From assembly GCA_944384235.1 (NCBI GenBank), contig CALWSP010000020.1:1-64000 (forward strand): a stretch of 64,000 nucleotides of DNA, written 5' to 3'. This DNA is from an uncultured Clostridia bacterium. Its GTDB lineage: Bacteria; Bacillota; Clostridia; Lachnospirales; CAG-274. Every line of letters starts with the position of its first letter. Within the stretch, counting starts at the first letter, position 1. Shown piece after piece: positions 4,764 to 49,262 of the stretch. The position numbers and the translations under genes were made by a program. The notes beneath the pieces were generated by a model. It searched no databases. It was not told the DNA's origin and saw nothing but the letters and a program-made list of their open reading frames with translations.

Positions 4764-4835
4764 AGTTTAATTTGTGTTTTATTAATTTTTAATTTAATAT
4801 ATATATTATTACATTATTAGAATTTGGAGGTTATT

Positions 4836-6242
4836 ATGAAAAGATTGATTAGGTTATCAGTTGCGGCGTTATGTATTGTAATGCTTGCTGGTTGTGGGAA
4901 AAAAGGAGATATGTTGCCAGTTGAAGAAGCAAAGGTTACTAGTGTTGAAGTTGAAAACCCTACTATTAACACAGTGAAAGACGAGTATATGTATTCTGGT
5001 GCAATTAAAGCTGCTCAAACTGTTGATGTGAGCGCTAAAGTATCAGGGCTTGTAGAAAATACATATTTTGAGGTGGGCGACAAGGTTACAAAAGGCGATG
5101 TTCTTTATACTATTGATGACACAGACTATCAAAACGCTTTAAAATCTGCTCAAGCTGGTTTAAACAGTGCAAATGCAAGTGTTCAATCTGCAAAAACTGG
5201 AGTTGAAACTGCTAACGGAGCAAGTATGCAAAGCCAAATTGAAGTTTCCAAAAATTCTATTACTAACAGCGAAACAGCTTTAGAAACTGCAAGAAAAAGT
5301 TTAGATGACTCTAAAATTGCATTAGATAAGGCTCAAAGTGAATATGATATTAACAAGCAATTATTTGATGTTGGTGGTGTTTCTGAAGATGCACTTAAAA
5401 CATACAAAAACGCATTAGAAAACGCTCAAAATGCTTATAGCAGAGCAGAGTTAAATGTTAAAAACGCTGAAAATGCTTTAAACCAAGCAAAGAGCAATTA
5501 TGACATTCTTGTTAACAAGACAACTGCTGAAAATTCTAGAAGGGCAAAAGATGCTTTAAATTCAGCTCTTGCTCAACAAAAATCAGCTCAAGTATCTGTT
5601 GACAATGCTAAGCAAAATATTGCTAATTGCACTGTTAAAAGCCCTATAAGCGGAACAATTCTTAGTAAAAATGCTACTTCTGGTTCAATGATTGGCGGGG
5701 TTGGATACCAGATTGTAGATTTATCTACTGTTAATGTTGAGGTTAAGGTTTCAGAACAAATTGCTACAAGTGTTAAAGTTGGTGACTTGGTTACTATTAA
5801 AATACCTTCTATGAGCGACGAGCAATTTGTTGGTAGCATTAGTGAAATTCCACCTGGGGCAAACAACGATGGTACATATAATGTTAAAATTAACATTCCA
5901 AATTCAACAGGCAAGTTAATTTCTGGTATGTTTGCTGAGGTTTATTTTGCTAAATCAACAAGCAACAACGCAGTTATTTTACCTAGAAACGCTGTATTAG
6001 ACGAAAACGGAGAAAACTACTTTGTTTATGTTTTAGATGGTGATAAGGCTAAGAAAGTTAATGTTAGTGTTGGCATTGACACTGGCGAAAGTATTGAGGT
6101 TGTTTCTGGGCTTAATATTAGCGACAAAGTTATTACTAAAGGTCAAACTTACTTAGCTGACGGTGATACAGTTAATGTTGTTTCTGAAAATGGCCAAGAT
6201 GTAGAAAAGGCTACTCCTAACAACGAGGAGGAGAAGAAATGA
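4836..6242 (+). CDS. RND efflux membrane fusion protein, lipoprotein (HlyD/AcrA type)
   Basis: A 468-residue periplasmic-adaptor-type subunit that would link the RND pump to a TolC-like partner. The signal peptide ends in the lipobox MLAGC with Cys at residue 20. After a first lipoyl half (TVDVSAKVSGLVENTYFEVGD, about residue 65) comes a long Ala/Asn/Ser-rich coiled-coil hairpin (about residues 100-260), the second lipoyl half (NCTVKSPISGTI, about 265) and a beta-barrel and membrane-proximal domain to about 450. The frame is open to TTG 4824, but ATG 4836 has GGAGG at 4826-4830. It overlaps the pump gene by the four bases ATGA, showing translational coupling. Confidence 0.93.
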   Translation: MKRLIRLSVAALCIVMLAGCGKKGDMLPVEEAKVTSVEVENPTINTVKDEYMYSGAIKAAQTVDVSAKVSGLVENTYFEVGDKVTKGDVLYTIDDTDYQNALKSAQAGLNSANASVQSAKTGVETANGASMQSQIEVSKNSITNSETALETARKSLDDSKIALDKAQSEYDINKQLFDVGGVSEDALKTYKNALENAQNAYSRAELNVKNAENALNQAKSNYDILVNKTTAENSRRAKDALNSALAQQKSAQVSVDNAKQNIANCTVKSPISGTILSKNATSGSMIGGVGYQIVDLSTVNVEVKVSEQIATSVKVGDLVTIKIPSMSDEQFVGSISEIPPGANNDGTYNVKINIPNSTGKLISGMFAEVYFAKSTSNNAVILPRNAVLDENGENYFVYVLDGDKAKKVNVSVGIDTGESIEVVSGLNISDKVITKGQTYLADGDTVNVVSENGQDVEKATPNNEEEKK

Positions 6243-9200
6243 TAAAAATATGTATTAAAAGAACTGTTACTGTCATAATGATGACAATGGTTGTGTTGCT
6301 TGCTGGTACTTTAGGGTACAATAGTTTAGAGCTTGCAATGACGCCTAATATTGATTTACCAGTAGCTCTTATTAATTGCAACTACACTGGTGCAGCTCCT
6401 GAGGAAATGGAGGAGCTTATTACAAAACCCATTGAAGAAAGTATGTCAACTTTAACTGGTGTTGACACAATTACATCTTCTTCATCTTCTGGTTCATCAA
6501 TTGTTGTTATTCAGTTTGTAGACGGAACTGATATTGATGTTATTACCAACGATATGAGAGATAAACTTGACAGAATAAAGGGTATGTTACCTGAAGATGC
6601 AACTGACCCTCTTATTATGAAAATGGATATGAACTCTACAACTATATCTGTTGGTATTACAAGCGATAAGTATGATGTTGACACTTTATATAACTTACTT
6701 GATGAAAATGTTACTTCAAATTTTGAAAGAATTGACGGTGTTTCTTCTGTTTCTTTATCAGGTGGTAGCGAGGAAGAAGTTAGAATTATAGTTGACCAGA
6801 ACAAAATGGAAAACTACGGTATAACTATGGGCAGCATTACTCAAGCTTTAGCTGCGGAAAACAAAAACTTACCATCTGGCTCTTTAAAGCAGGGTGATAT
6901 TGACATATCTTTAAGAACTGTTGGAGAGTTTGAAACCATTGAAGATATTAAAAACACATTTATTACTACAAGCAGTGGCAACAAAGTTATGGTTAAAGAC
7001 GTTGCTAATGTTAAAAAGGTTAAAAAGGAAAAAACAAGTAAATCTTTAATTAACGGAAAAGAAGGTTGTACATATTCCTTATCAAAGCAAAGTGATGCGA
7101 ACATTGTTACAGTTTCTGAAAGCATTGTTCAGGCGATGAACAAATTACAGGCTCAATACCCTGATTTTAAATTTACTTTACTTACAGATACTGCTGATTA
7201 TATTAAACTTTCTATTAGCAATATGGTTTCTTCTGCATTCCAGGCGGCTATTCTTGCAGTTATTGTGCTTTTAGTTATGTTAAGAAGTGTTAAGATGTCA
7301 TTTATTATTGCTGTTTCTATTCCAACTTCTATTATGGCTACTTTTGGGCTTATGTATATTAGTGGAATGTCCCTTAATATGATGTCCTTAGGTGGTGTTG
7401 TTATTGCAATTGGTATGCTGGTTGACAACTCCATTGTTGTTCTTGAAAACATATTTAAGAAAAAAGACGAGGGTATGAGTGGACCTGACGCAGCTTATTA
7501 TGGTACATCTGAAGTTGCAATGGCTATTACTGCATCTACTCTTACTACAGTTGCTGTATTTATTCCTTTAGTGTTTATTAAAGGTACGATTGGACAGCTT
7601 ATGAAAGAAATTTCATACACTGTTTGTTTTGCTCTTGGTGCATCTTTACTTGTTGCTTTAACTTTTGTGCCTATGGCGGCTGCTGTTTTAATGCGTCAAG
7701 AAGAAAAGGCTAGAGGAAATGGTTTTATTGGCAAGATTTTTAATAAGCTTGATGTTATAGTTGGCACATTTTTAGATAAAATGGACCTTGGTTACTCTAA
7801 TTTTATTAAAAAATGTCTTGGACATAGAATAATTACAGTTATTGCTGTGTTTATTGCATTTGTGGCCTCTTTATTATGTGTTCCACTTGTTGGTTCTGAC
7901 CTTATGGCTTCTAGTGACGAAGGTAGTGTTTCTATTAAAGCTACTTTACCAAATGGTACTGATTATGAAACAGCTGAAAAGATGTTAGATAACATTTTAG
8001 CTAAAGTTGGCGACGTTGAAGAAATGGTTAAAATGGATGCAAATATTGGTGGAGGAAGTTTCTTTAGCACAGGCACATCTATAAACATTAATTACGATGT
8101 TGGCGACAGAGAAGACAGAAACAGAAGTTCCAAAGAAATTGCCGAGGATATTGAAAGCAGGTTACAAAACATTGCTGGTTGCGAAATTACAGTTAGTGAC
8201 TCTAGCAACGCTATGGGTTCTCTTGGTGGAAGTGGATTTGAACTTCAAATTAGAGGCGACGACAACGATAAATTAAAAGAAATTAGTGATGAAATTATTG
8301 CTGAAATAAAAAAGATACCTAATGTAAAAGATGTTGAATCTTCGTTAGATGACTCTAGCACAGAGGCAACTATTGTTATTAACAGAGCTAAAGCATCTCA
8401 ATATGGTTTGACTACTCAAAGTATAGCTTCAGCTATAAGCAGCGCAAACTCTGGTTCAGTTGCAACAGAATACAAAACTGACGGAACTGAAATTGATGTT
8501 AGAATTATGTATCCAGACGAAGATGTTGAATATGTTAAGGATTTAAACAGCCTTTCAATAACTAACAATGCTGGTGTTGTTATTCCATTAACTGAAGTTG
8601 CAAGTATTGAAATGGGCGAGGGCGCTTTAAGTATTACAAGAGAAAATATGCAAAAGTATATTGAAATTTCAGGCGAAATACCAGGTATGGACTCTGCATC
8701 TCAACAAGCACAAGTTCAAAAAGTTTTAGACAACTATGTTTTTCCTGATGGATACAGCTACAAATTTGGCGGTATGATGGAAAAGATGGCTGAAACATTT
8801 GCTAGTTTATTTACTTGTATGGTTGTTGCGATTCTCCTTATATATATGGTTATGGCTTCTCAGTTTGAGTCATTTGTGTATCCATTTATTATTATGTTCT
8901 CTATGCCTTTAGCTATTACAGGCGGTATTTTTGGACTTTTAATTACAGGACAAAACCTTACATCAACTGCTTATATGGGACTTATAATGCTTGTTGGTAT
9001 GGTTGTTAACAACGGTATTGTTTTAGTTGACTATACAAACCAATTGCTAGAAAGAGATAAAAAGACTAGTGTGAACGAAGCTTTAATGATGGCAGGTCGT
9101 TCTAGATTAAGACCTATTTTAATGACTACACTTACAACTGTGCTTGGTATGTTACCAGTTGCTTTAGCTTTAGATTCTGGTATGGAAACTAACCAAAGTA

Positions 9201-9403
9201 TGGGTATTGTTATTGTATTTGGTCTTACAATTGGTACAATTATTACACTTATATTTATACCTGTTCTTTATTCTATTATTAATTCTATAAAGTTAAGATT
9301 AAGAAAAAAGAATATGAGGTATGTATCTGACAAAGACAACAATAGAAAAATGAAAAGAGATGCAAAAAAAGCATTTAAAAAAGGAGAGGAAATAAATGAA
9401 TAA
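6239..9403 (+). CDS. RND-family efflux transporter (HAE1/AcrB-like)
   Basis: A 1054-residue proton-driven exporter of usual RND length. There is one N-terminal membrane helix, a large extracytoplasmic loop, a block of helices at about residues 330-480, a second large loop and a final helix block at about 850-1020. The TM4 motif reads GMLVDNSIVVLENI, so the first of the two Asp residues of the AcrB pair is kept and the second is Asn, which I recall as common in Firmicute RND pumps. The C-terminal tail is lysine-rich. It is coupled to the adaptor gene before it and overlaps the TolC-like gene after it by 8 bases. The substrate cannot be told; control by the adjacent MarR protein suggests toxic organic compounds, drugs or bile-like molecules. 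Confidence 0.95.
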   Translation: MIKICIKRTVTVIMMTMVVLLAGTLGYNSLELAMTPNIDLPVALINCNYTGAAPEEMEELITKPIEESMSTLTGVDTITSSSSSGSSIVVIQFVDGTDIDVITNDMRDKLDRIKGMLPEDATDPLIMKMDMNSTTISVGITSDKYDVDTLYNLLDENVTSNFERIDGVSSVSLSGGSEEEVRIIVDQNKMENYGITMGSITQALAAENKNLPSGSLKQGDIDISLRTVGEFETIEDIKNTFITTSSGNKVMVKDVANVKKVKKEKTSKSLINGKEGCTYSLSKQSDANIVTVSESIVQAMNKLQAQYPDFKFTLLTDTADYIKLSISNMVSSAFQAAILAVIVLLVMLRSVKMSFIIAVSIPTSIMATFGLMYISGMSLNMMSLGGVVIAIGMLVDNSIVVLENIFKKKDEGMSGPDAAYYGTSEVAMAITASTLTTVAVFIPLVFIKGTIGQLMKEISYTVCFALGASLLVALTFVPMAAAVLMRQEEKARGNGFIGKIFNKLDVIVGTFLDKMDLGYSNFIKKCLGHRIITVIAVFIAFVASLLCVPLVGSDLMASSDEGSVSIKATLPNGTDYETAEKMLDNILAKVGDVEEMVKMDANIGGGSFFSTGTSININYDVGDREDRNRSSKEIAEDIESRLQNIAGCEITVSDSSNAMGSLGGSGFELQIRGDDNDKLKEISDEIIAEIKKIPNVKDVESSLDDSSTEATIVINRAKASQYGLTTQSIASAISSANSGSVATEYKTDGTEIDVRIMYPDEDVEYVKDLNSLSITNNAGVVIPLTEVASIEMGEGALSITRENMQKYIEISGEIPGMDSASQQAQVQKVLDNYVFPDGYSYKFGGMMEKMAETFASLFTCMVVAILLIYMVMASQFESFVYPFIIMFSMPLAITGGIFGLLITGQNLTSTAYMGLIMLVGMVVNNGIVLVDYTNQLLERDKKTSVNEALMMAGRSRLRPILMTTLTTVLGMLPVALALDSGMETNQSMGIVIVFGLTIGTIITLIFIPVLYSIINSIKLRLRKKNMRYVSDKDNNRKMKRDAKKAFKKGEEINE

Positions 9404-10550
9404 AAAAAGAGCTATTTGTGGTTTAATTGCTGTTATGATGTTGACACCAGTTTATGCAAACGCTGGTATGTTAGGAACTGTAAAAGGTGCTCAAAGCAAA
9501 GACACAAAAATTCTTGGAAGCACTGTTAGCGGAACTAACTACAACCAGTTACTTACGGAAGAAGATTTAACTGTTGAAATGGCTATTGATGAGGCTATTA
9601 AGTACAGCAGGGACATTAAAAACCTTGAAGAAAATGTTGAAATCCTTGAAGATACTATGAGAGAGGTTCATAGTTATTGGGAGGTTGCAAGCGATTACAG
9701 CACAAACCATTCTTTAGCTGTTCAGCTTAGACAGCTTACAATTAACCTTTCTAGTTTTAGCGACAACCAAGAAAAAGCTAAGGAAAAGATTGCATACAAT
9801 GTTAAAAATATATTCTATGCTATTGACACATTAGAAAAGAGTTTAGATATTTACGACAAACAACTTGATTTAAGCAAAAGAAACCTTGTTGTTTACGAAA
9901 CTATGTTAAATCTTGGAAAGATAAGCCAAGTAGACTACAACAACTACAAGTATGAATATGACAAGCTTGTTTCTGACAGAGCTAATGTTGAAAACCAAAT
10001 TAATTCTACTTTTAGAACTTTAAACCAATTAATGGGCAAAGACATTAACCAAAAGTACAACATTATAGTTGATGATGTTGATTTTGTAGATATGGGTAAG
10101 GTTGATGTTTCTTACGAAATTAACAAAAGTTTAGAAACAAACCAAACTGTTAAATCTGCAAAAGATGCTTATTATATTGCTGATTATGACATTAAGTCTT
10201 ATGTTGATGGACCTAATGTTAGCGCTGACAGAAAAGAAAAAGAGGCTAAGAGAAACCAAGCTCAAAGAACTTTAGAAGACACTAAAACTAGTTTAAAAAA
10301 CCAAATGACTTCTCTTTATGAAAACATTATGGACAGTGAAAGAGTTTACAAAGAAAACGAAAGTAAACTTAATTTATTAAACGAACAGCTAAAGGTTAAA
10401 GAAGTTCAGTTTAGTTTAGGTAAAATTACTCAGCTTGAGTTAGACAGCCACAAGTTATCTATTGAAAGTTTAAAATTAACTATGGAGTCAAGTGCAAAAA
10501 ACCATCAATTAAGTGTTGAACAATTTAAAAACTCTGATTTATTAATGTAG
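9396..10550 (+). CDS. TolC-like outer-channel family protein, apparently without a beta-barrel
   Basis: A 384-residue exported protein with a signal peptide (AVMMLTPVYANAG). The sequence shows the family's first conserved segment (LTVEMAIDEAIKYS, about residue 53) and two long coiled-coil halves, about 75-215 and 260-380, each containing the LGKISQVDYNNYK or LGKITQLELDSHK turn typical of TolC repeats. The usual protein has about 420-480 residues with beta-strand insertions in each half. Here the joins look too short and too charged for membrane strands. It closes the adaptor-pump-channel operon and is followed by a terminator. It probably forms a periplasm-like coiled-coil conduit in the cell wall rather than an outer-membrane pore. 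Confidence 0.82.
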   Translation: MNKKRAICGLIAVMMLTPVYANAGMLGTVKGAQSKDTKILGSTVSGTNYNQLLTEEDLTVEMAIDEAIKYSRDIKNLEENVEILEDTMREVHSYWEVASDYSTNHSLAVQLRQLTINLSSFSDNQEKAKEKIAYNVKNIFYAIDTLEKSLDIYDKQLDLSKRNLVVYETMLNLGKISQVDYNNYKYEYDKLVSDRANVENQINSTFRTLNQLMGKDINQKYNIIVDDVDFVDMGKVDVSYEINKSLETNQTVKSAKDAYYIADYDIKSYVDGPNVSADRKEKEAKRNQAQRTLEDTKTSLKNQMTSLYENIMDSERVYKENESKLNLLNEQLKVKEVQFSLGKITQLELDSHKLSIESLKLTMESSAKNHQLSVEQFKNSDLLM

Positions 10551-14794: not shown

Positions 14795-14824
14795 AAGGAA
14801 TACATTATGTGTATTCCTTTTTTT
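14795..14824 (+). terminator. Terminator of the ABC transporter operon
   Basis: AAGGAATACA (14795-14804) pairs perfectly with 14810-14819 around a 5-base loop, followed by T residues. Confidence 0.88.
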
Positions 14825-14841
14825 ATTTGATAATTATATTG

Positions 14842-14870
14842 TTGACTTATGAATATAATTGTAATATAAT
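14842..14870 (+). promoter_or_regulatory. Promoter of the giant pilin/minor pilin operon
   Basis: TTGACT at 14842-14847 and TATAAT at 14865-14870 with a 17-base spacer. Transcription would start near 14877, which rules out the upstream in-frame start codons at 14809 and 14875. Confidence 0.75.
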
Positions 14871-14922
14871 TAGTATGTTAAAGTGTAGGCAAAATATGAT
14901 TTTGACAGGGCTTGGTGAGAGT

Positions 14923-17900
14923 ATGGATTGGAAAAATAAAAGAGGTTATACACTAATAGAATTAACTATTGTTATGGCACTTATGCTTGTGCTATTTACT
15001 ATGCTTAGTGTAGGTGTTTTAAGTTTTTTAAATCATTCAGAAAAAACACATAATGATGAATATGCTAAAATTATTTTTTCTAGCGTTCAAAATGCTTTAA
15101 TTGATAAAAAAAATAACGGTAGCCTTTTAGAGTTAAGAGATGATATTATGGCAAATTGTGATGGTGTTCCTTTGCCTATATACAAAGGTGGCGTTATTTC
15201 AAACGAAGTTAGAGATATGTATTCAAGGCTTTTTGCAATTAATATTGGACCTAACAAGGTTACTGAAAGGGACGAAAAGGCTAGAGAAATATTAAAGGAT
15301 TTAGTTAGTGACAGAATGTATGATAGCGAAATGTGGAAAGGGGCTGTTTGTGTTGAACTTGACCCATCAGATGGAGTTGTTAAAGCTGTTTGGTACAGCA
15401 AGACTGGAAAAGAGTTATCATATAGCAGAGAGGATTTAGAAAACAGAGTTATAAAAATTGGCGATTTTACTAAAGATTTTAAGGAAAGTGCCATTGGTTA
15501 TTATGGAGTTGATGAACTTTCGGATTCGATTCCTGTTGATTTAGGCAGGCCAAAAGTTGAAAATGCTAAAATTACAAATGGCGATGTTTTAGATATTAGT
15601 TGGAACTTAGACAACGAATTTGCTTTTTATGTTAGAAAGTTAGATTATGAAATTAATATATTTAACGAAAGCAACAAGCCGTTAATTAACTTAATTATTG
15701 ACGGAGAAAATTTACAAATTGGAAGCCAAAGTGAGATGAAGTTTATAGATGCTAAAATTTCTACTTACGATAGCAGTGGAAACTTAACATCAAGTGGAGA
15801 GAGTATACCAGTTTTATCTTACATTGGAAGAAACAAAAACGATATACATATTGTTTTAGATGCTATTGATTTAAATGCTGAAAATGTTATTAACCAATTT
15901 AGAAGCGACAAAACTAATGTTGATTATGTTCAAAAACTTAAAAAATCTACTAGTATAATGAAATTTGTTGAGCTATATAATTTTGATATTAAAGGGCAGA
16001 TAAAGGCTGAAATTAAAGCTAGTGATTTAAGCTCAAGTAGCGACACAAAAGTTACAAATTTAGCTAGTGTTATTGCAAACAAAGTTGAGGGTGAGAAAGT
16101 TTTTGAAATTAGCAATGCAAGGCATTTATTTAACATTAGATTTATTGAAAACAGTTTTTCAGGAATTGAAGGTATAACTTACAATCAAGTAGAGGACTTT
16201 GAATGGGGAAAGAAAGACTTTATTTTTAACACTTTAGAGGGTAGCACAAATACATATAAATTTACTCCAATTGAAAAGTTAAACAGCAAACATAGTTATA
16301 ACGGAAACAACAAGAAAATAGAAAACTTAGTTATTAGCGAAGATAGAAACGAAGTTGCTTTATTTAGAGAAAACAGTGGTAGCATTTCAAATATAGTAAT
16401 TGAAAAAGCCGTAGTTTATGGAAAGGAAAATGTTGCTATATTATGTGCTAAAAACAATGGTGAAATTAAAAACATTGTTACTAGCGGAAATGTTAGCGGC
16501 GAAAAGTATGTTGCAGGTATTATAGCCACAACTAGCGGAGGAAATAGAAAGTATAGCGAGTTGAAAAACGACGCTAATGTTACTGGATACGAATTTGTTG
16601 GCGGTGTTATTTCTGATTTAAAAGATTGCGAAGTTGAAAACAGTAGCAACACTGGTTTAGTTAGAGGACTTAAAAAAGAAGGTGTTACAAGCCAATATAT
16701 TGGCGGTATTACTGGATACAGCGACAGTAGTGTTATTAAAAATTGTGTTGTTGAGCCAAGCCAAGATAATTTTAAATTGCCAGAAAACATTTTAGATTAT
16801 ATGGTTGGAAACAATGTTGGTGGCGTAGCTGGTTACAGCAAAAACAGTAGTTTTGAAAACTGTGAAAACAAAGGCGGGTATGTATTTGGTGAAAGTTATG
16901 TTGGTGGAATTATTGGTAGAGCAGAGGGTGAGTTAGTTTTAAATGGAAATGGCAAAGAAAACAACTCTACTGTTGTTGGTAGCCAATATGTAGGTGGCAT
17001 TATTTCAGAAATTAATGAAAAATCTAGTTTAAAAAATTGGGTGAACAAAGGGTTAGTATTTTCTACAAACGGCTATTGTGGTGGCATAGCAGGCTTTAAC
17101 AAAGGAAAGGTTGAAAATTGTTATGTTAAGATGGATAATCACGAAGATGGTTTGGTGGAAAAACGCGAAGAAAACAAAGCCTTTTATTATTACTTAACAG
17201 AAAATAAAGTTTCATTATCTGAAATTACTAAAGAGGCTGACTATGTAGGCGGCGTGGTTGGTTACAATGGTGGTGAAGTATTAATTGAAAGTGAAATTTT
17301 ATCGCCAATTGTTATTGGAAGAAACTATTTAGGTGGAGTAGTTGGATACAACTTAGGAAAAGTAAGTTTAAAAAATGTTACTGAGCCAATTATTTCGGGC
17401 AGCAACTTTATTGGTGGCGTTTTTGGATTTAACGGAGATATTAATTCTATTAATGGTATAAAAATAAGCAATTTAGATATTAACAGCAACGATGGAAATT
17501 TTGTTGGAGGTTATATTGGAGCAAATATAATATCTAGTTTAAATTCTAAAGATGTTGAAAACGAAAACTTAACTATTTCTGGAGGCAACATAAAAGCTAA
17601 AGGGAATTATGTTGCAGGTGTTATTGGATACAACAGCGTAGTTGAGGAAAAAGACATAGAAGCATATGTTAAAAACATTTTAAGTGCGATTAAAGACGGC
17701 AAGGAATTTGATGAAAAAAGTGTTAATTCAGGTTCAATGATTTTTAAAAATGCTAAAATTAACGTTGATAGTGTTGAGGGTGGCAGGTTTGTTGGTGGTA
17801 TTATAGGTAAGAATACAGATAATACTCACACTATTCTTAACAAAATTAATGGTGAAATTGGCAAAATAAAGGGTAACGATTTTATTGAAGTTGAAGGCAA

Positions 17901-20900
17901 AAAACATTCCTTTACATCAAGTATATCTGGAATGATAAGCAAAAATATGATAGTTGAAGAAGTTAGTATGAAAGCAAATGTTGAAAGTTACAGCAATGTT
18001 ACTGGAAACTTTGCTGAAATTAACGAAGGACAGATTTTAAATTGTATTATTGAAAGAGATATAAACAAAGGCGTTTACGCTGGCGGTATAGTTGGTATAA
18101 ACAAAGGTATAATATCAAATTCTAGATACAATGGAAATGTTTTAACTAACGCTGGAATTTCATATATTAACTACGGAAGGATTGAAAGCCCTGAGGTTAA
18201 AAATGGTGTTATTGTTTACAGAAACGAAAGCGGAGCTTTAATTACTGGAAATGTTTTAGTTGAAAGCGAGATAGTTAACGGCGAAAATGCAGGCAGCATT
18301 GCTTATAGAAACTCTGGAGAAATTAAAGACATTACATTTGGTGGAAAAGCAAGCATATTTACATTATTTAAAAATGGTAAAATTAGTGTAGATGGTGGCG
18401 GTTATACTGGTGGTATTGTCGGAGTTAACGAAGATTATGGTAGTATTGAAAATGTTATATTAGAAAAGGAAATTACTCTTGTTTCACAAAATGCAAAAGC
18501 TGTTGGTGGCTTAGTTGGTGCTAACTATGGTAGGATTAAAAACATTAACATTAACGACAACATTTATTTTTATGTTTCAAACAAAGACTGTATATTAGGC
18601 GGATTAGTTGGTTTAAATGTAGAGTCTGAAAGCGATGAAAATTTAGGTTTAATTGAGGGAAACGAAGAAAATAAAAGTGTATTTAATGTTCAAATAGACA
18701 GTGAATGCAATGTTATAGGCGGTGTTGTTGGAAGCAACAGCGGAAGAATAAGGAACATTGTTTTTGCTGGAAAAATAAATGGTAGAGCAAATGTTATTGG
18801 TGGCATTGCTGGCAAAAATGACGGGCATATTGAAAGTTGTTTTGTTGAGAGTTTAGAAAGCTCAAGAGATAGCATTAAAAACTTAAGTGAAAGCAACGTT
18901 TCTAGCACTGGTGGCATTGCAGGAGAAAACACTTTAAATGGTTTAATTGAAAAGGCTACTGTTTTAAGAGGTAATATTAGTTCTGAAAGCGGGCAAGTTG
19001 GTGGCGTAGTTGGTTTGAACTATGGTGAAGTTACATCTTGTTATGCTGAGGAAGAAGAAAAGGAAAACTCTAGCAAGGAAAAAAATGTTAGCATATATTC
19101 TGCAAATGGATATGCAGGCGGTATTGCTGGCAAGAACGAAATTGAGGCAACAATTACACTTTCTTCAACTGGAGAGGACTGGGAAGTTAAGGCTGAAGGT
19201 AGCTCAAGTGGAGTAGGTGGTATAGTTGGATACAACTGTTCTGAATATAGTATAGAAAGTGTGTCTAACTATGCTAGTGTAAATGGCGATGTAAACGTTG
19301 GTGGTGTGGTTGGTTACAACAACAATAACACTACAAAAAGTTATGGCGTTAGAGGTTGTGTTAATTATGGTGACGTTTTTGGAAGACAAAATGTTGGCGG
19401 AATTACAGGAAGTGTTAATGTAGGTTTTAATGACAAGGAAATAGAGGGCAAAATTACATTTGCATTTTGCGAAAACTATGGAAATGTTACAAACAAAACA
19501 AACTATACAGGCGGTATAGTTGGGTACATTAACTCATCACACAACGACAACATTGTGTTTGAAGTTTGTAAAAACTTTGGAGAAGTTGGAAACAAAGACG
19601 GGGCAAATGTTGGTGGTATATTAGGCGGAAATGACGAAGGCAACGATTTATCAAAAGTTATTTTCTACAACAATGTTAATGCAGGAATAATTAATGGTGG
19701 TTTTAACTATGGCGGTATAGCTGGATATGTGAGTGGAGATACTGTTCAAGTTGAAGGCAATGTTAATTATTATAATTTTAATGGAAAAGACGGTTTTGGT
19801 GGCATTGTTTGTTCTGGTGTGAACGCAGAATATAGGAACAATATTAATATTAACAGCAAAAATTTTGTTACTAACGGGTACCAAAGTGATGGCGGAACGA
19901 ATCTATATTTTGGGGAGAGCATAGAAAGCACTGAAAATATTCCAAATGTTGTGAATGTTAGGGAAAAAATTAAGGCAAGTTATGAAAGTGAAAACGTTAA
20001 ATTATTATGGGACAATTTATATGGCTTAGAAAATGAAGCCTTTACAGTTTCTTCTGAGAATATAAGTGGTTTTAAATTTAGCATAGACACGAAAACAGAA
20101 AATGGTGGCTCAACTATTGAGAACATTGCAATTGCTACTCAAAGCGAAGTTGACAAGTTTAAGTATTATGATTTTAATGTTATGTTAAAGGACATAGACG
20201 GAAACAAGTTGTATTTAAACAAAGACGGCGAGTTAGTAGATGAAATTCCTGACGAGGCTTTAAGAATTAGCATTGAAGAGTATGACAACATTAAATGGGG
20301 AATTTTTAAGCTAAAGGAAGCAAAGGAAAGAATTGTAGAAGTTGAAATTACTGTTTTAGGTGTTAATGTTAAAGCTAGTGAAAAAGACAAAATGGAAAAG
20401 AGCAACTTGATTGTTATAAACGAAATTTCGTTAAACAGAGGTGAAAATTCTCAAGAGAATATGCTAACTCTTTACAGAAATGGTGATACATATGTTGGAA
20501 TTAACCAAAATCAAGGAGTGGCTATTTACGACATTTTATACAACCCAAACGACAATGAACACAAAAATTATGATGCAAAGATGTATTATGAGGACATTGA
20601 CAGTGCAATTCAAAGCTATTTTAGGAGTCAATTTAGTTCAGTTGCTTTAGAAAGCCAAAACATTATTTTAACTAGGTACGACAATGGCTACAAATTAAAC
20701 TGGGATAAAGCTCAAGGTGGATACGCTTATTTAGTTGAAGTTTATACTTACAACGACAATGAATGGGTGTTAAGAAAGCAACAAGAAGTTAGATACGGCA
20801 CAGAGTATAGGTTTAAGGCTGAAAGAAAATGGCTTAATGACGGAGCAAGCTCTATTATGTGCAAGGTGAAAACCACAAATGGTCTATATGAAAAGGGCAG

Positions 20901-23007
20901 AGCTTTAGGTGAAAACGGGCAATTTATTTCAAACGCTGGAAAATCTAACATTATTGGCATTGGAGAGCTTTTACCTAGCCCAGAAATTAGTTTTGAGCTT
21001 ATTAACGAAAAAGGTGACTATATAATTAGTTTGTTAAATGCAAAAGAGTACAAAGATTTAGAGAAAGAAAACATTGACATTTATTTGAATATTAATGGCG
21101 TTGGGGCTAAGTTTAAAGTTGTAGGCAATATTAAGTTTGAGTACAACAAAGACGAGGATTTAAGCCTTAATGTTATAGCTCAAGCTAGAATTAGCAACAA
21201 CGAGAAATATATGAACTCTATAGCTATTAGCAAGCAATTAAATTTATATAGTGTTAAGAGTTTAGCAAGCAACAGATTTAGTGAAATTGAAAAAGGTAGC
21301 TACTTTACTGGCGACAACCCTCTTGAGCTTAAATTTAACGGAAGCATTAAGAGCAAAGAAAATGTGTTAAACACTAGATACAACGAGATTTTATACAACG
21401 GTGTTGTATATGGCTATGACGAAATGAGAGAAAGCGAAAGAAATGATTTTGTGATAGCTAATTTAGAGGAGATACCTGCTAATTCTAAGGTTATTTTTAG
21501 GTCGTATTTAGCTGGCGATATGAATATGGGTGTTAGTTATGGGCATAAGGTTTTAGAAAAGGCTAAATACGAAGATGTTCAAAAATATATAAACCAAAGT
21601 GGTTATGTTGTTAGGAAAAACAAGGATTATTATGATGTTTATTACAATGTTTTACTAGCAAACAAAGGCAAATTTGGAAAGCAAATTTTAGAAAAAGAAG
21701 TTGTTTTACCAAAGGGCTTAGAAAAAGTTAATTTAAATGACGACTATGATTTAAGCAACGGTTTATATAAATTTAGTTTTAGCGACAATGGCTCTGGAAA
21801 ATACAAGGTTAGAATTAGTGGAAAAAATGCTGGCTTTGAAAACAAGGTTTTATTTGACGAAATTACAGAAAACAAGCAAATTTTAGTTAACGGAAAGGAC
21901 TGGATTTTTGACAGTTTAGTTGTTGAAGTTGCTAAGATTGGCAAGGAAAGTATTATAACTGAAAATATGGGAAGTTATGTAAAGAAAGAATACAACTTTA
22001 AATACAGTTTACCAGAAATTAAAGTTATTGATGTTAAAAGATTAGATGGATACAACTACAATGTTAGCTTTAATGGATATGTTGATGGCAGCGAGGAGTT
22101 TAACCAAGCTAAGGGATATAGCATTAGAGTGTATGGAAAGGCTGAAAATGTTGGTTGGTATGTTGTGGGCAGTTTAATTGACAAAAACCAAAGTAGTGCA
22201 AGTGTTGATTTAAGTCCATTTAAAAACCAAGATATTAAAGTTGGCGTGGTTGCTATTGTTGACGAAAAGGCAAGAAGCGAAAGGTTTAAGTCAAATTCTA
22301 TTATTAAAGAAGTTTATGATGTTAAGGTTGAAGAAGAGGTTAAGCTAGGAAAAGTTAGCATAGAGTTAAAGCCTTATACATATATAAGCGAGTTTGAAAA
22401 TGGAATTGTGTTAAAGTTTGATGTTCTTGAAAATGATGAAAGTGGCAAATATGTTATTTCTGGAAATGTTCTAGATGGGCAAACTTTGGTTTATAGCTTT
22501 GAAGAGAAAGAAGTTATTAACGGGGAGTGTTATTTAAAGAATGTTCCAATTAATGCCCTTAACAAAGAGTTGAAAGTTAGGTATAAATTTATTAAAGAAA
22601 ATGGCAAGAGTTCTGAAGAAAGCAAGGAAATTAGCATTAAGCTTCCTAAAGCTAAATTAGACACGCTAAAAGTTATAGTTGACGAAAAAGGGTTAAGCAT
22701 TGAAAAGGGAAAATATGTTATTAGTTACAACATTATTTTAAAGAGCAAAGACGGTAGAAGAAAGGAAGTTGACATAGACTTAAGTTCAAAGAAAGTTATT
22801 GTTGACGGAATGGAAATTAAAAAATTATCTAGCGTTCTTGACAAAAATGTATACAGCATTGACAAGGGTAAAACTGACATTAATTTAGAATTTTTGGAAG
22901 ATAAAATTATGATTTTACCTCTTGAAAATGTAGAAAGCATTGAGGTTAGTGCTAATTCTCTAGATGATAGCATTGAAAAGACAGATGTTTTTGTGTGGAA
23001 GAAATAG
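14923..23007 (+). CDS. Giant type IV pilin-like protein with about 30 GLUG repeats
   Basis: A 2694-residue protein that begins like a type IV pilin: a short basic leader, cleavage site after Gly8 (KRG, then YTLIE), Glu at mature position 5 and a hydrophobic helix to about residue 35. From about residue 500 to 1630 there are roughly 30 GLUG-type repeats, each with a core like VGGVVGYN or AGGIAGKN followed by a short strand. The C-terminal 1000 residues include fibronectin-III-like beta stretches (one near 1910-1970, GYKLNWDKAQGGYAYLVEVY). GLUG repeats are known from surface adhesins and IgA-protease-like proteins. The start at 14923 is chosen from the promoter position and pilin logic; GGTGAG at 14914-14919 is a close, weak ribosome site, and 14896 is the alternative. 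Three minor pilin genes follow at once. The likely role is a pilus-tip adhesin. Confidence 0.9.
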   Translation: MDWKNKRGYTLIELTIVMALMLVLFTMLSVGVLSFLNHSEKTHNDEYAKIIFSSVQNALIDKKNNGSLLELRDDIMANCDGVPLPIYKGGVISNEVRDMYSRLFAINIGPNKVTERDEKAREILKDLVSDRMYDSEMWKGAVCVELDPSDGVVKAVWYSKTGKELSYSREDLENRVIKIGDFTKDFKESAIGYYGVDELSDSIPVDLGRPKVENAKITNGDVLDISWNLDNEFAFYVRKLDYEINIFNESNKPLINLIIDGENLQIGSQSEMKFIDAKISTYDSSGNLTSSGESIPVLSYIGRNKNDIHIVLDAIDLNAENVINQFRSDKTNVDYVQKLKKSTSIMKFVELYNFDIKGQIKAEIKASDLSSSSDTKVTNLASVIANKVEGEKVFEISNARHLFNIRFIENSFSGIEGITYNQVEDFEWGKKDFIFNTLEGSTNTYKFTPIEKLNSKHSYNGNNKKIENLVISEDRNEVALFRENSGSISNIVIEKAVVYGKENVAILCAKNNGEIKNIVTSGNVSGEKYVAGIIATTSGGNRKYSELKNDANVTGYEFVGGVISDLKDCEVENSSNTGLVRGLKKEGVTSQYIGGITGYSDSSVIKNCVVEPSQDNFKLPENILDYMVGNNVGGVAGYSKNSSFENCENKGGYVFGESYVGGIIGRAEGELVLNGNGKENNSTVVGSQYVGGIISEINEKSSLKNWVNKGLVFSTNGYCGGIAGFNKGKVENCYVKMDNHEDGLVEKREENKAFYYYLTENKVSLSEITKEADYVGGVVGYNGGEVLIESEILSPIVIGRNYLGGVVGYNLGKVSLKNVTEPIISGSNFIGGVFGFNGDINSINGIKISNLDINSNDGNFVGGYIGANIISSLNSKDVENENLTISGGNIKAKGNYVAGVIGYNSVVEEKDIEAYVKNILSAIKDGKEFDEKSVNSGSMIFKNAKINVDSVEGGRFVGGIIGKNTDNTHTILNKINGEIGKIKGNDFIEVEGKKHSFTSSISGMISKNMIVEEVSMKANVESYSNVTGNFAEINEGQILNCIIERDINKGVYAGGIVGINKGIISNSRYNGNVLTNAGISYINYGRIESPEVKNGVIVYRNESGALITGNVLVESEIVNGENAGSIAYRNSGEIKDITFGGKASIFTLFKNGKISVDGGGYTGGIVGVNEDYGSIENVILEKEITLVSQNAKAVGGLVGANYGRIKNININDNIYFYVSNKDCILGGLVGLNVESESDENLGLIEGNEENKSVFNVQIDSECNVIGGVVGSNSGRIRNIVFAGKINGRANVIGGIAGKNDGHIESCFVESLESSRDSIKNLSESNVSSTGGIAGENTLNGLIEKATVLRGNISSESGQVGGVVGLNYGEVTSCYAEEEEKENSSKEKNVSIYSANGYAGGIAGKNEIEATITLSSTGEDWEVKAEGSSSGVGGIVGYNCSEYSIESVSNYASVNGDVNVGGVVGYNNNNTTKSYGVRGCVNYGDVFGRQNVGGITGSVNVGFNDKEIEGKITFAFCENYGNVTNKTNYTGGIVGYINSSHNDNIVFEVCKNFGEVGNKDGANVGGILGGNDEGNDLSKVIFYNNVNAGIINGGFNYGGIAGYVSGDTVQVEGNVNYYNFNGKDGFGGIVCSGVNAEYRNNININSKNFVTNGYQSDGGTNLYFGESIESTENIPNVVNVREKIKASYESENVKLLWDNLYGLENEAFTVSSENISGFKFSIDTKTENGGSTIENIAIATQSEVDKFKYYDFNVMLKDIDGNKLYLNKDGELVDEIPDEALRISIEEYDNIKWGIFKLKEAKERIVEVEITVLGVNVKASEKDKMEKSNLIVINEISLNRGENSQENMLTLYRNGDTYVGINQNQGVAIYDILYNPNDNEHKNYDAKMYYEDIDSAIQSYFRSQFSSVALESQNIILTRYDNGYKLNWDKAQGGYAYLVEVYTYNDNEWVLRKQQEVRYGTEYRFKAERKWLNDGASSIMCKVKTTNGLYEKGRALGENGQFISNAGKSNIIGIGELLPSPEISFELINEKGDYIISLLNAKEYKDLEKENIDIYLNINGVGAKFKVVGNIKFEYNKDEDLSLNVIAQARISNNEKYMNSIAISKQLNLYSVKSLASNRFSEIEKGSYFTGDNPLELKFNGSIKSKENVLNTRYNEILYNGVVYGYDEMRESERNDFVIANLEEIPANSKVIFRSYLAGDMNMGVSYGHKVLEKAKYEDVQKYINQSGYVVRKNKDYYDVYYNVLLANKGKFGKQILEKEVVLPKGLEKVNLNDDYDLSNGLYKFSFSDNGSGKYKVRISGKNAGFENKVLFDEITENKQILVNGKDWIFDSLVVEVAKIGKESIITENMGSYVKKEYNFKYSLPEIKVIDVKRLDGYNYNVSFNGYVDGSEEFNQAKGYSIRVYGKAENVGWYVVGSLIDKNQSSASVDLSPFKNQDIKVGVVAIVDEKARSERFKSNSIIKEVYDVKVEEEVKLGKVSIELKPYTYISEFENGIVLKFDVLENDESGKYVISGNVLDGQTLVYSFEEKEVINGECYLKNVPINALNKELKVRYKFIKENGKSSEESKEISIKLPKAKLDTLKVIVDEKGLSIEKGKYVISYNIILKSKDGRRKEVDIDLSSKKVIVDGMEIKKLSSVLDKNVYSIDKGKTDINLEFLEDKIMILPLENVESIEVSANSLDDSIEKTDVFVWKK

Positions 23008-23028: not shown

Positions 23029-23616
23029 ATGAAAGGTTTAATAAAAAAAGCTATAAAAAACGAAAGTGGTTTTGCCACAGTTGTTGCAGTGGTTATGCTG
23101 GTTTTATTTACTGCCTTAGGTTTGGCTTGCCTTATTTCTGTTTCTTCCTTTTTAAAAAGCACTCAAACAAGATATTACAGAGAGCAAGTTAAAATTTATG
23201 CCACAAGTTTTTCGCAAAGGCTTGAAAAAGAGCTTGAGGGAATGGACAACGTTATTGGTGGCGGCGACGGGCAGTCTTTATCAAAGTATTTATATGAAAA
23301 TATGTATACTTTTGGGGACGATAGAACTTGGCTTGCAAACAAGAGCGACGGAAACGGCGGGTTTTATTCTGAGAAAGTTAAGTTTAGTGCCGACGGATAT
23401 GAAAGCAGTGAAGTTCAAGTTCCTGAGATGGAAATTGAAATGTATTGGAGTTGCGACAAAAACCTTACAGGGCTTTCAGAGGAAGAAAGGTATTTAAGCA
23501 CAACTGTTCATATTAAGGTTAAGGCTATTTACAGAGAGTATGAGTATTCATACGAAAGCAATTACAGCCTTATTAAAAATGGTGACGGGAAAGTTAAGTG
23601 GAATAAGGTCGTTTAG
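23029..23616 (+). CDS. Minor pilin, GspK/PilX-like, lacking Glu5
   Basis: A 195-residue prepilin-like protein. A basic leader MKGLIKKAIKNESG is followed by F-A-T-V-V and a long hydrophobic helix (VAVVMLVLFTALGLACLISV). Mature position 5 is Val instead of the usual Glu, as in the tip pseudopilin GspK and some PilX-type proteins. The helix is followed by an amphipathic stretch (TQTRYYREQVKIYATSF) and a small globular domain. It lies 21 bases after the giant pilin gene and 17 before the next minor pilin. Confidence 0.85.
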   Translation: MKGLIKKAIKNESGFATVVAVVMLVLFTALGLACLISVSSFLKSTQTRYYREQVKIYATSFSQRLEKELEGMDNVIGGGDGQSLSKYLYENMYTFGDDRTWLANKSDGNGGFYSEKVKFSADGYESSEVQVPEMEIEMYWSCDKNLTGLSEEERYLSTTVHIKVKAIYREYEYSYESNYSLIKNGDGKVKWNKVV

Positions 23617-23633: not shown

Positions 23634-23966
23634 ATGAAAAATATATTTAAAAATGAAAAAGGAATGACAATGGTTTCTGTTATTGTTGGCTTTGCTGTTT
23701 TAATGTGTGGCAGTGCTATATTTTATCAGGCTGTTTTAAGTTCAAGAAATATGTTAGAGCTTGCTTACAAGGAAAGTTACGACTTAGAAAAAAGTGTTGA
23801 AAACTATTTTAACACTAGGTTTGGCTCTAGTTCGCCTGCTGGAAGCAGTGTTGAAATTAATTTTAATGGAAATGGAAAAAATATTAAATTTAATTTTGAA
23901 ATGGTTAAAGTGGAAAACACTGGAGATAGGACTGGGCATAAGTTTGACTTTTACTATTTTAAATAA
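23634..23966 (+). CDS. Minor pilin with Ser at position 5
   Basis: A 110-residue prepilin-like protein: leader MKNIFKNEKG, mature start MTMVS and the helix VIVGFAVLMCGSAIFYQAVLSS. The leader and hydrophobic helix fit PilV/GspI-type pilins, but position 5 is Ser rather than Glu. The globular part is short and rich in Asn and Lys. AAGGTGG precedes the start. It is probably cotranscribed with its neighbours and assembled in the pilus tip complex. Confidence 0.82.
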   Translation: MKNIFKNEKGMTMVSVIVGFAVLMCGSAIFYQAVLSSRNMLELAYKESYDLEKSVENYFNTRFGSSSPAGSSVEINFNGNGKNIKFNFEMVKVENTGDRTGHKFDFYYFK

Positions 23967-23980
23967 ATGGAGGTGGGAGA

Positions 23981-24556
23981 TTGACAAGGCTAGTTAAATG
24001 GATTAGGAAAAACCAAAAGGGAACAACGATGGTAGAAATGATTGTTACGTTTGGGCTTTTAAGCATTTTTTTGACAGCATCTGTTATGTTGGTGGCTAAT
24101 TATGCAAACATTCAAGCCAAAATTTCTGGGCAGATTTCAGCTGAAAATGTTTCTGAAATGGTTTTAAACACCGTTGAGGGAGAATTGTCAAAGGCCACCG
24201 AACTTTTTGGAACTGGAAACAAGTTTATTCAAGTTAGCGAAGATGTTGTTTTTGGAAAGGTTATTGAGTTTAGCAACAAAGACAAGTACAAATCTAAAAT
24301 GTTTATAAAAGATGGTATGCTTGAAATTGACTATTTTAGAAGAGCTGACATTGTTATGGACAGTAGCACTGTTGTTAGCCGTTGGTATTTTGACGAAAAG
24401 GTGTATATGGGAAACAAAATTACTCAATTTGACATTGAGGAGTTTAAAACTGGCGGTAGAGTTGTTCAAGGAGTTTACAAGGTTAAAATTAAAGTTGAAA
24501 ACGGAAGCAGTAGCGTTGAAAAAAGCAGGCTTATTGAAATTAGAAACGCTATTTAA
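23981..24556 (+). CDS. Minor pilin, PilW/GspJ-like
   Basis: A 191-residue prepilin-like protein that starts with TTG, supported by GGAGGTGGG at 23969-23977. The leader MTRLVKWIRKNQKG is followed by TTMVE with the canonical Glu5 and a hydrophobic helix (MIVTFGLLSIFLTASVMLV). The C-terminal domain of about 140 residues is beta-rich, as in GspJ/PilW proteins. It is last in the minor pilin operon; no clear terminator follows. Confidence 0.85.
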   Translation: MTRLVKWIRKNQKGTTMVEMIVTFGLLSIFLTASVMLVANYANIQAKISGQISAENVSEMVLNTVEGELSKATELFGTGNKFIQVSEDVVFGKVIEFSNKDKYKSKMFIKDGMLEIDYFRRADIVMDSSTVVSRWYFDEKVYMGNKITQFDIEEFKTGGRVVQGVYKVKIKVENGSSSVEKSRLIEIRNAI

Positions 24557-24813: not shown

Positions 24814-25347
24814 ATGAGTAAATTTAAAAGTTTTACTAAGGAAATGAGAAAAAGATTAGGTACTGACGTTAAAGGGTTTACTTTAATTGAAGTTATCGTT
24901 GTTTTAGTTATCCTTGCTATTTTAATGGCTATTGCTATTCCTAATGTTTTAGGTTACATTAACAAGGCTAAGGGTACAGAAAACGAATTAAATGCAAGAA
25001 ACGTATTTATGGCTGCACAGGTTGAAACAGCTGAGATTTTAAAGACAAATCCATCTGTTACAGCTACTAATTTTGTTGCAGATAGTAATAAGCACCTTAA
25101 GTCTATTTGTAATTTAGCTAACATTGATTATGTTGATGGTCAGATTACTGTTGTAGAAGATGATGTTACAACAACAGAGAACGCAAAAAACACTCCAAAG
25201 ATTGTTATCGTTATTGAAGATAGTGCAATTAGCGGTGTTCAGTATGTTCCTGCTCAAACACAGGCTACTCCAGAAGACCAGGCTAAGATAGTAAACTACC
25301 ATTCTGATGGTTCTATCAACTACGGTACTAAGTTTGCAGAGCAATAA
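24814..25347 (+). CDS. Major type IV pilin
   Basis: A 177-residue type IVa-like prepilin. The 21-residue basic leader ends in Gly21, and the mature protein begins FTLIEVIVVLVILAILMAIAIP with Glu5, the closest match to a classical pilin in this window. The C-terminal domain is Thr/Ala/Val-rich and has no cysteine pair. It has its own promoter and terminator, consistent with high and separate expression from the minor pilins. The assembly ATPase, platform protein and prepilin peptidase are not in the window. Confidence 0.92.
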   Translation: MSKFKSFTKEMRKRLGTDVKGFTLIEVIVVLVILAILMAIAIPNVLGYINKAKGTENELNARNVFMAAQVETAEILKTNPSVTATNFVADSNKHLKSICNLANIDYVDGQITVVEDDVTTTENAKNTPKIVIVIEDSAISGVQYVPAQTQATPEDQAKIVNYHSDGSINYGTKFAEQ

Positions 25348-25370: not shown

Positions 25371-25400
25371 AAGGGCTGATGGAAACATCAGCCTTTTTTA
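25371..25400 (+). terminator. Terminator of the major pilin gene
   Basis: GGCTGATG (25374-25381), GAAA loop, CATCAGCC (25386-25393) and a T run. Confidence 0.92.
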
Positions 25401-47621: not shown

Positions 47622-49262
47622 ATGAAAAATGTAAAAAAAATAATTGTCGTTGATGATGAAAAATATTATGGTGGGGATTTTAAAGATTTTGATTTAGTCT
47701 TTATTAAAAACACCAAAACATATTTTTTAGATATATGTAAAAGGTTTGTCAATCTATCGGCAATTATTATTGATGTTAATGTTGATTTTGAAGAAAGAGT
47801 TAATTTTATTAAAGAAATTCGAAACGACAATCTATTAAATAAAATGCCTCTATTTGTTACAACTGACAAAGAGTTAGGTGATGAAGAAATAGAGCTTTTA
47901 GACTTGGGGGTTATAGATGTCATTAAAAAGCCATTTAGCAAGGTGGTTTCTAAAAAAATTAACAATGTTATTGATGTTTCTGAAAATGAAATTGAAAAGT
48001 TAATTGGAATTAACAACACAAGTAGTTTATATAAATATATTCATTATGTTATTTCTGGAAATCAACATAAAAAATACAGCATTATTATGGTTGATATATA
48101 TAAGTTTAGAGTTATTAACGACATATATGGGCCAGAAAAGGCTGATGAGATTCTTGTTAAATTGGCTAGTGAAATTGAGCGAGTTAACAAAAAATACAAC
48201 GGGATTTGTGGACACAGTTATGCTGACCAATTTATAATGGCAGTTAGTGAATATGATGAAAGTTTTGAAAAAGAGTTAAAAGAAATTGAAGCTAATATAA
48301 ATAAAAGTTTAGACAAAATTAGAATTTCTTTAAAAGCTGGTGTGTATGATGTTGAAGACCCTAATATGCCTGTTATTACAATGTGTGCAAGGGCTAAGTT
48401 TGCATTAAATGAAATTAAAGACAGGTTTGATATTAGAGTTGCAAAATATGACGAGGCATTAAAAGCCGCTATTAGTAAAGAAAACAAAATTTTATCTGAT
48501 ATGAAAATGGGTATAAACGAAGGGCAGTTTAAAGTTTACTACCAGCCTAAGTATGATGTTTTATGTGAGAAAACTGTTGGAGCTGAAGCTCTTGTTAGGT
48601 GGGTGCACCCTGAATATGGAATGATTTCTCCTGCTGATTTTATACCAATTTTTGAGAAAAATGGCTTTATTACAGAAGTTGACCTTTGTGTTTGGGAAGA
48701 ATGTTGCAAGTTTCTTCAAAAGAGAAAGAACGAGGGGAAAGAAATTATTCCTATTTCTGTAAATGTTTCTAGGCTAGATATGGTAGCTGATGGGTTAGTG
48801 GACAAAGTTTGTGAGCTTGTTGACAGGTATGGAATAGAGCATAAATATTTTCACTTAGAGATTACTGAAACTGCTTATGCTAACGACCCTGAGAAGTTAA
48901 ACAGAGTTTTAGAAGAATTTAAAAGCAGAGGGTTTGTTATTGAAATTGACGACTTTGGAAGCGGACATTCTTCTTTAAGTATTTTATCTGAAATGCCGAC
49001 AGACATTTTAAAGCTTGATATGAAGTTTTTAAACAGCAAGCAAGATGTTCATATTAGAAACAAGATTTTATATAGTGTTGTTAAATTAGCTAATTTAATG
49101 AATTTAAAAATTGTGGCTGAGGGCGTGGAAACAAAAGAACAATTAGACTATTTAAGAAAAATTAAGTGTAATTATGTTCAAGGTTATTATTTTTCTAAGC
49201 CATTGCCTGAAGAAGATTTTGAAGAAATTATTGACAATGAAAACAATGTATTGCACGAATAA
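47622..49262 (+). CDS. c-di-GMP phosphodiesterase: receiver-like, degenerate GGDEF and EAL domains
   Basis: A 546-residue signalling protein. The first 120 residues look like a response-regulator receiver: IIVVDDEKY at the start, IIIDVNVDF with the likely phospho-Asp, and VIKKPFS with the conserved Lys. The GGDEF domain (about 145-285) has HSYADQF at the signature site, so cyclase activity is unlikely. The EAL domain (about 300-540) is intact: GAEALVRW near 320, LEITETAY near 415, EIDDFGSGHSSL near 442 and AEGVETKEQ near 502. It should break down c-di-GMP, which in Clostridia affects type IV pili, motility and biofilm; a link to the pilin locus here is only inferred. A terminator follows. Confidence 0.93.
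   Translation: MKNVKKIIVVDDEKYYGGDFKDFDLVFIKNTKTYFLDICKRFVNLSAIIIDVNVDFEERVNFIKEIRNDNLLNKMPLFVTTDKELGDEEIELLDLGVIDVIKKPFSKVVSKKINNVIDVSENEIEKLIGINNTSSLYKYIHYVISGNQHKKYSIIMVDIYKFRVINDIYGPEKADEILVKLASEIERVNKKYNGICGHSYADQFIMAVSEYDESFEKELKEIEANINKSLDKIRISLKAGVYDVEDPNMPVITMCARAKFALNEIKDRFDIRVAKYDEALKAAISKENKILSDMKMGINEGQFKVYYQPKYDVLCEKTVGAEALVRWVHPEYGMISPADFIPIFEKNGFITEVDLCVWEECCKFLQKRKNEGKEIIPISVNVSRLDMVADGLVDKVCELVDRYGIEHKYFHLEITETAYANDPEKLNRVLEEFKSRGFVIEIDDFGSGHSSLSILSEMPTDILKLDMKFLNSKQDVHIRNKILYSVVKLANLMNLKIVAEGVETKEQLDYLRKIKCNYVQGYYFSKPLPEEDFEEIIDNENNVLHE

Follow-up and report, generated by a model that had tools for sequence, protein, structure and literature searches.

A giant GLUG-repeat type IV pilin at the head of a pilin operon in a gut Clostridia bacterium

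Among the type IV pilus subunits encoded by a gut Clostridia bacterium is one that is more than ten times larger than usual. Its gene lies in a contiguous stretch of 64,000 nucleotides (hereafter the window, to which all positions refer unless stated otherwise) and is the first of five same-strand pilin genes placed between a promoter and a terminator. We consider it likely that the protein is a modular minor pilin, which takes the first slot of a tip-initiating complex and carries a giant beta-helical arm, probably serving as an adhesin.

An intact giant gene and its pilin operon

The open reading frame runs uninterrupted from an ATG at 14923 to a stop at 23007 (2,694 codons, no internal stops) and is thus the single intact 8-kb gene of 2694 residues that a preliminary description of this DNA had reported. 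The translation start, a point on which the assignment of a leader peptide could have failed, is fixed at the ATG by a ribosome-binding-site-like GGTGAG, by the promoter and terminator upstream of it, and by the orthologues from the same genus, which align from the same Met. A GTG at 14809 was rejected as an upstream start because it is located inside the terminator hairpin (14795-14819) and 5' of the promoter (14842-14870). The features of the locus are as follows, with predicted leader cleavage sites marked by a slash.

14795-14819, forward: intrinsic terminator that ends the preceding amino-acid ABC transporter operon (11-bp stem followed by a T-run)
14842-14870, forward: sigma70-like promoter of the pilin operon, TTGACT-N17-TATAAT, 53 bp upstream of the ATG; top match (11/12) of the scan, a pattern match and not functional proof
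14914-14919, forward: ribosome-binding-site-like GGTGAG, read directly from the sequence
14923-23007, forward: giant GLUG pilin, 2,694 aa, about 296 kDa once the leader is removed
14923-14946, forward: class III leader peptide (aa 1-8), predicted cleavage after Gly8; PF07963 and TIGR02532 above cut-off
14923-15507, forward: pilin module (aa 1-195), delimited by the family alignment, the model and plain 190-aa homologues
15508-16107, forward: linker domain (aa 196-395), modelled with low confidence as beta-rich; conserved in genome G313 (E 1e-10) and in the genus orthologues
16108-19992, forward: GLUG region (aa 396-1690) with 26 GLUG cores, predicted right-handed beta-helix, confidently modelled only for aa ~450-730
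16120-16140, forward: RHLFNIR signature (aa 400-406) at the entry to the beta-helix
19993-23004, forward: C-terminal part (aa 1691-2694, ~1,000 residues), presumed distal
23029-23616, forward: minor pilin, 195 aa, leader ESG/FATVV, lacking Glu5 (K-like position)
23634-23966, forward: minor pilin, 110 aa, leader EKG/MTMVS; position +5 is Ser in the genus and genome G364 but Glu in the other relatives
23981-24556, forward: minor pilin, 191 aa, leader QKG/TTMVE, from a TTG start or an ATG at 23993
24814-25347, forward: major-pilin-like protein, 177 aa, leader VKG/FTLIEV, with a GspG/ComGC/PilA-like N-terminus, the models of which match best
25371-25396, forward: intrinsic terminator ending the pilin operon

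The giant begins with MDWKNKRG/YTLIELTIVMALMLVLFTML, reading YTLIELTIV after Gly8, with Glu at +5. Two curated models recognise this leader above their cut-offs, PF07963 (N_methyl) with 26.4 bits against 21.2 and TIGR02532 with 20.0 bits against 16.3, and the prepilin leader described earlier (Gly8, Glu5, hydrophobic helix) is accordingly genuine as far as model searches can tell. The protein therefore combines the hallmarks of type IV pilins, namely a class III leader ending in Gly or Ala, Glu5 and a hydrophobic helix. This helix is the sole membrane-grade hydrophobic segment of the giant. We considered attachment via an LPXTG motif or a C-terminal membrane anchor and rejected both, as neither an LPXTG or other wall-anchor motif nor such an anchor is present in the protein.

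The genome also encodes an assembly machine, including the prepilin peptidase. On contig C22 of the same 1.75-Mb assembly, a single operon comprises PilD, carrying both A24 domains (PF01478 and PF06750), PilC, a PilM-like and a PilO/GspM-like protein, PilB with an MshEN domain, and PilT, whose score exceeds the cut-off of the PilT/PilU subfamily model. Pil models fit PilC, PilO and the major pilin about as closely as Gsp and Com models do. Neither a secretin nor Omp85 was found in the genome by searches that both gave matches in control genomes, and the pilus should therefore be of the monoderm type. For the tip protein PilC/PilY1 (PF05567), the genome gave no match in a search that was silent in control genomes too, and the giant itself does not match PF05567.

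Three further loci of the same genome deserve mention in their own right. An operon at 4824-10550 of the window encodes an MFP, an AcrB-type RND pump and a TolC-like outer membrane efflux protein (PF02321, E 1.6e-19), the last being odd in an apparently monoderm genome lacking Omp85 and secretin. Outside the pil loci, contig C6 (L106:2449-4941) carries tandem pilins of 352 and 395 aa (GFTLIEIIVVLVI). Finally, a GGDEF-EAL protein with a receiver-like N-terminus is encoded at 47622-49262 of the window, 22 kb from the pilin operon. In C. difficile, a c-di-GMP riboswitch precedes pilus genes; at the Rfam gathering threshold, none was found upstream of either the pilin operon or the pil operon.

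Pilin module, GLUG beta-helix and C-terminal part

The pilin module consists of the alpha1 helix, an AxxIYxxxQNxL motif and a closing beta hairpin, VELDPxDGxVxxVWY. In the structural model it is seen as a helix (aa 11-64) and a hairpin (aa 141-158), with pLDDT values of only about 40-60. Two motifs return all through the family of related giants described below, namely A(R/K)xIYLAAQNxLT, which follows the transmembrane helix, and the hairpin IEFxxxTGxVxSVFYSD. As judged from these sequences, homology among the giants extends beyond the leader to a module of ~190 residues. When the family profile was compared with solved pilins, matches were confined to alpha1, except for 3sok.

The preliminary description had counted about 30 GLUG repeats, which is a fair estimate: aa 441-1700 contain 26 GLUG cores, whereas 2,000 shuffled sequences had 1.16 on average and 7 at most. 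For the protein as a whole, the Pfam model PF07581 scores E 3.4e-11 and 43.2 bits (cut-off 20.5), only 3 repeats passing individually. At the DNA level the repeats have diverged, with one trivial tandem array. We saw no sign of a DNA-level tandem expansion or misassembly of this region, and the divergence of the repeats makes such an artefact unlikely. A sequence search with the whole giant against the PDB returned chance matches only, and no catalytic Pfam domain was found in the protein. Among 20 family members submitted to Pfam, GLUG was detected in 6, Peptidase_M26_N in 3 and CBM_5_12 in one.

To the fold of this region, an AlphaFold model of aa 1-1200 built from four sequences gave a partial answer. 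Its mean pLDDT was 46 and most of it is poor, but for about aa 450-730 it is confident, and here the GLUG part is predicted to form a right-handed beta-helix of the kind found in IgA1 proteases. In a structural alignment (VIA), the modelled helix matched the IgA1 protease structure 7uvk with Z 25.4 over 265 residues (rmsd 2.8) and the GLUG protein 3n6z with Z 24.2. Foldseek agreed with this alignment, retrieving 3n6z with E 5.5e-5. Polysaccharide lyases and phage tailspikes ranked below the IgA1 proteases and 3n6z, with Z 16-19.

The C-terminal third had been described as beta-rich, a claim that could not be confirmed. A single-sequence model of aa 1890-2561 reached a mean pLDDT of 34, no Pfam family matched this part, and no relative of it was found among the other giants or in 392 genomes of the order. 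The genus orthologues lack any counterpart of it.

A family of giants with a fixed place in the pilin cassette

The giant had been introduced as a single unusual protein. It is instead part of a family spread over the order, in which larger proteins also occur, and the suggested search for other proteins joining a pilin leader to GLUG repeats was productive. With a profile of the first ~510 residues, we found pilin-led open frames of 966-4,121 aa in at least 29 of the 392 genomes of the order; a sample of the class added more giants (2,035-3,752 aa) and a sample of the phylum one (2,182 aa). Within the genus, two orthologues of 1,134 and 1,148 aa have 16 GLUG cores and the same gene order as the window, and a third is cut by a contig end. 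A comparison of the genomes G006 and G004 gave a dN/dS of 0.37 for the gene as a whole and 0.20 for its pilin module, values pointing to purifying selection on the genus orthologues.

Of 35 pilin-led giants, 29 carry one copy of a signature, RH(L/I/V)xN(I/L/V)(R/D), located at position 319-602. None of the 7 examined GLUG proteins without a pilin leader has it, nor do the 4 shortest homologues, with lengths of 189-501 aa. Their signature, their size and their place in the locus thus set the giants apart as a distinct family. As for its origin, a tree of 40 pilin modules does not group the short or plain forms together: they are found in at least three different parts of it, and its supported branches require three or more switches between size classes. 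Such a pattern calls for losses or for repeated grafts. The simple scenario in which a plain 190-aa pilin was the ancestor of the giants is unsupported, the short forms being scattered over the tree. As the RHL motif is shared, an early graft followed by reductions seems more probable, with repeated grafting as the alternative.

The place of the giant genes is as characteristic as their signature. Genes for PilB, PilC, PilD, PilM or PilT are present in 32 of the 43 fetched loci. For 22 of 32 giants (the one in the window and 21 more), the first pilin gene downstream encodes a protein without Glu5, mostly followed by two further pilins; this triplet was not seen downstream of the other 10, and the downstream pilin of G006 and G004 has a Glu at +4. 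In genomes G560 and G620, a protein of 189-191 aa that is homologous to the pilin module and carries no further part takes the slot of the giant; it matches nearly the whole profile (E 1e-36 to 1e-39) and is again followed by a Glu5-less pilin and others. The same module of about 190 residues hence occurs alone in the slot in which it otherwise bears a C-terminal GLUG beta-helix, the arrangement that defines a modular pilin.

In HIJK complexes, four minor pilins initiate the filament and remain at its tip, with a Glu5-less member as the cap (PMC10191384). The window likewise has four minor pilin genes together, one of them without Glu5, and the pilin at 23634 also has Ser at +5. The fixed slot of the giant ahead of a Glu5-less pilin argues for a tip complex of this type. 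When compared with PDB and Pfam, the K-like and W-like minor pilins gave leader matches only, the H, I, J and K family models remaining silent; of 20 Glu5-less pilins, 2 weakly matched PilX_N (E 0.025). With the PilX_N and GspK models failing, the identity of the K-like subunit rests on its missing Glu5 and its position. Interpretation of the protein as a pilin is borne out by leader, ~190-residue module, operon and comparative synteny, whereas the single-protein view of the preliminary description is not.

Several relatives depart from the common layout. In G448 (L123:2944-7857), the enlarged gene is the last minor pilin of the cassette, encoding a pilin-led protein of 1,637 aa that has no GLUG cores and the end of which resembles BspA/DUF285-type repeats by eye. 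This case suggests that various slots of the minor pilin complex can take giant modules. A 20-kb stretch of G377 (L091) encodes a pair of pilin-led giants, of 2,630 and 2,106 aa, which both lack the RHL motif and have no pil machine genes nearby. The 4,035-aa pilin-led giant of G208 (L084:2374-14481) ends in a hydrophobic segment and a basic tail, without LPXTG, and because of this end it may be held by both ends. In G183 (L130:15229-19231), a tandem array of at least eight major-pilin-like genes (143-172 aa) behind the pil operon is a possible pilin-variation cassette.

A proposed tip arm and its alternatives

In the mechanism we propose, PilD would trim the leader from the ~190-residue pilin module, which would fill the first (H/FimU-like) slot in a complex with the next three gene products, where the Glu5-less partner could cap the filament. 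PilB and PilC would push the minor pilin complex out first and, since this four-membered complex would start assembly, it should end up at the tip. The linker, the ~1,300-residue GLUG beta-helix and the ~1,000-residue species-specific end would then form a long, stiff arm extending from the tip and measuring an estimated 13-22 nm, roughly, if 26-46 coils rise 4.8 angstrom each. Such an arm would most likely bind a host, mucus or cell-surface ligand, and PilT retraction would draw cell and ligand together. To our knowledge, there is no direct precedent among characterised pilins for secretion of so large an ectodomain (~2,650 residues) by way of a pilin anchor.

Given this size, extreme for a filament subunit, the pilin leader might be a mere membrane anchor or export signal, making the giant a membrane or wall surface adhesin outside pili. 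The same family of genomes does encode GLUG proteins with ordinary signal peptides, which are non-pilus surface or secreted proteins, and the additional C-terminal segment of the G208 giant would suit such a role. A purely surface protein, however, would need neither the conserved entire pilin module nor the conserved location ahead of minor pilin and pil machine genes, and a wall-anchor motif is absent; we regard this explanation as unlikely. We find it similarly improbable that the beta-helix is a lyase-like enzymatic or binding arm acting on polysaccharide, with the pilus as its carrier for degradation or substrate capture. Lyases and phage tailspikes are next in structural similarity after the IgA1 proteases, and one family member matches CBM_5_12, but the GLUG helices of IgA1 proteases and 3n6z score well above the lyases and the protein of the window has no catalytic domain.

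Glu5 and a normal alpha1 would not forbid insertion of the giant into the shaft, where several copies could display beta-helical side arms along the filament body, and in their survey Raynaud et al. do not exclude modular pilins from the shaft if the linker is flexible (PMC8179133). The bulk of the giant speaks against this arrangement, and a single gene heading a minor-pilin cassette fits a low copy number, so that we consider a shaft subunit quite improbable. Least credible is a filament of the pseudopilus or DNA-uptake kind (T2SS- or Com-like) binding exported protein or DNA and not host surfaces: PilC, PilO and the major pilin are about equally near to Gsp/Com and Pil models, but PilT is present, the lack of a secretin argues against a T2SS, and the acidic arm (pI about 5) speaks against DNA binding.

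The proposed tip arm has counterparts in several known systems. Modular pilins are widespread, with more than 1,200 proteins and 264 architectures reported in the text of a 2021 survey (PMC8179133), and in Streptococcus sanguinis the modular pilins PilB and PilC cap the pilus (PMC10628169). Like these, the giant combines a class III leader and a pilin module with a grafted non-pilus module and is encoded with pilins in a monoderm type IV pilus system. It differs in belonging to a family with a signature of its own and a fixed place in a four-pilin cassette, and in size: the protein of the window has 2,694 aa and its largest relative 4,121, as compared to 860 residues with 12 repeats in the most extreme case cited in the survey text, which does not list a GLUG beta-helix among the commonest architectures (PMC8179133). 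With the PilHIJK, FimU-PilVWX and GspHIJK sets (PMC10191384), the cassette shares four minor pilin genes, one without Glu5, adjoining the major pilin or the pil machine, yet its first member is 6-20 fold larger and the GspH, GspK and PilX models do not recognise the proteins found here. The GLUG core and right-handed beta-helix recur in the N-terminal region of IgA1 proteases (6xjb, 7uvk) and in BACOVA_03286 (3n6z); unlike these, the giant lacks a protease domain and is displayed on a pilin, not via a Sec signal or LPXTG anchor. The proposed role as a large binding protein at the tip is that of the PilC/PilY1 adhesins, but PilY1 is a beta-propeller and not a pilin, whereas here the pilin itself carries the arm. 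A literature search for GLUG pilins found no paper, and members may be listed in Dataset S1 of PMC8179133. Modular pilins as such are known; the present family, with its size and fixed position, appears to be new.

On a wider and more tentative reading, to which we give slightly less than even odds, giants marked by RHLxN[IVL][RD] may form a beta-helical pilin family in Clostridia and beyond that contributes one subunit of the tip complex. This subunit would provide a single tip fibre tens of nanometres long, the fast-diverging distal end of which could act as an adhesin-variation system.

The giants extend the range of modular pilins from the 860 residues given in the 2021 survey (PMC8179133) to above 4,000, and link the giant module, in many gut Clostridia, to a single position in what is presumed to be a tip complex. 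They offer a natural test of the cargo size limit of the type IV pilus machine and of pilin membrane export, and might be a concrete candidate for type IV pilus attachment by abundant gut commensals.
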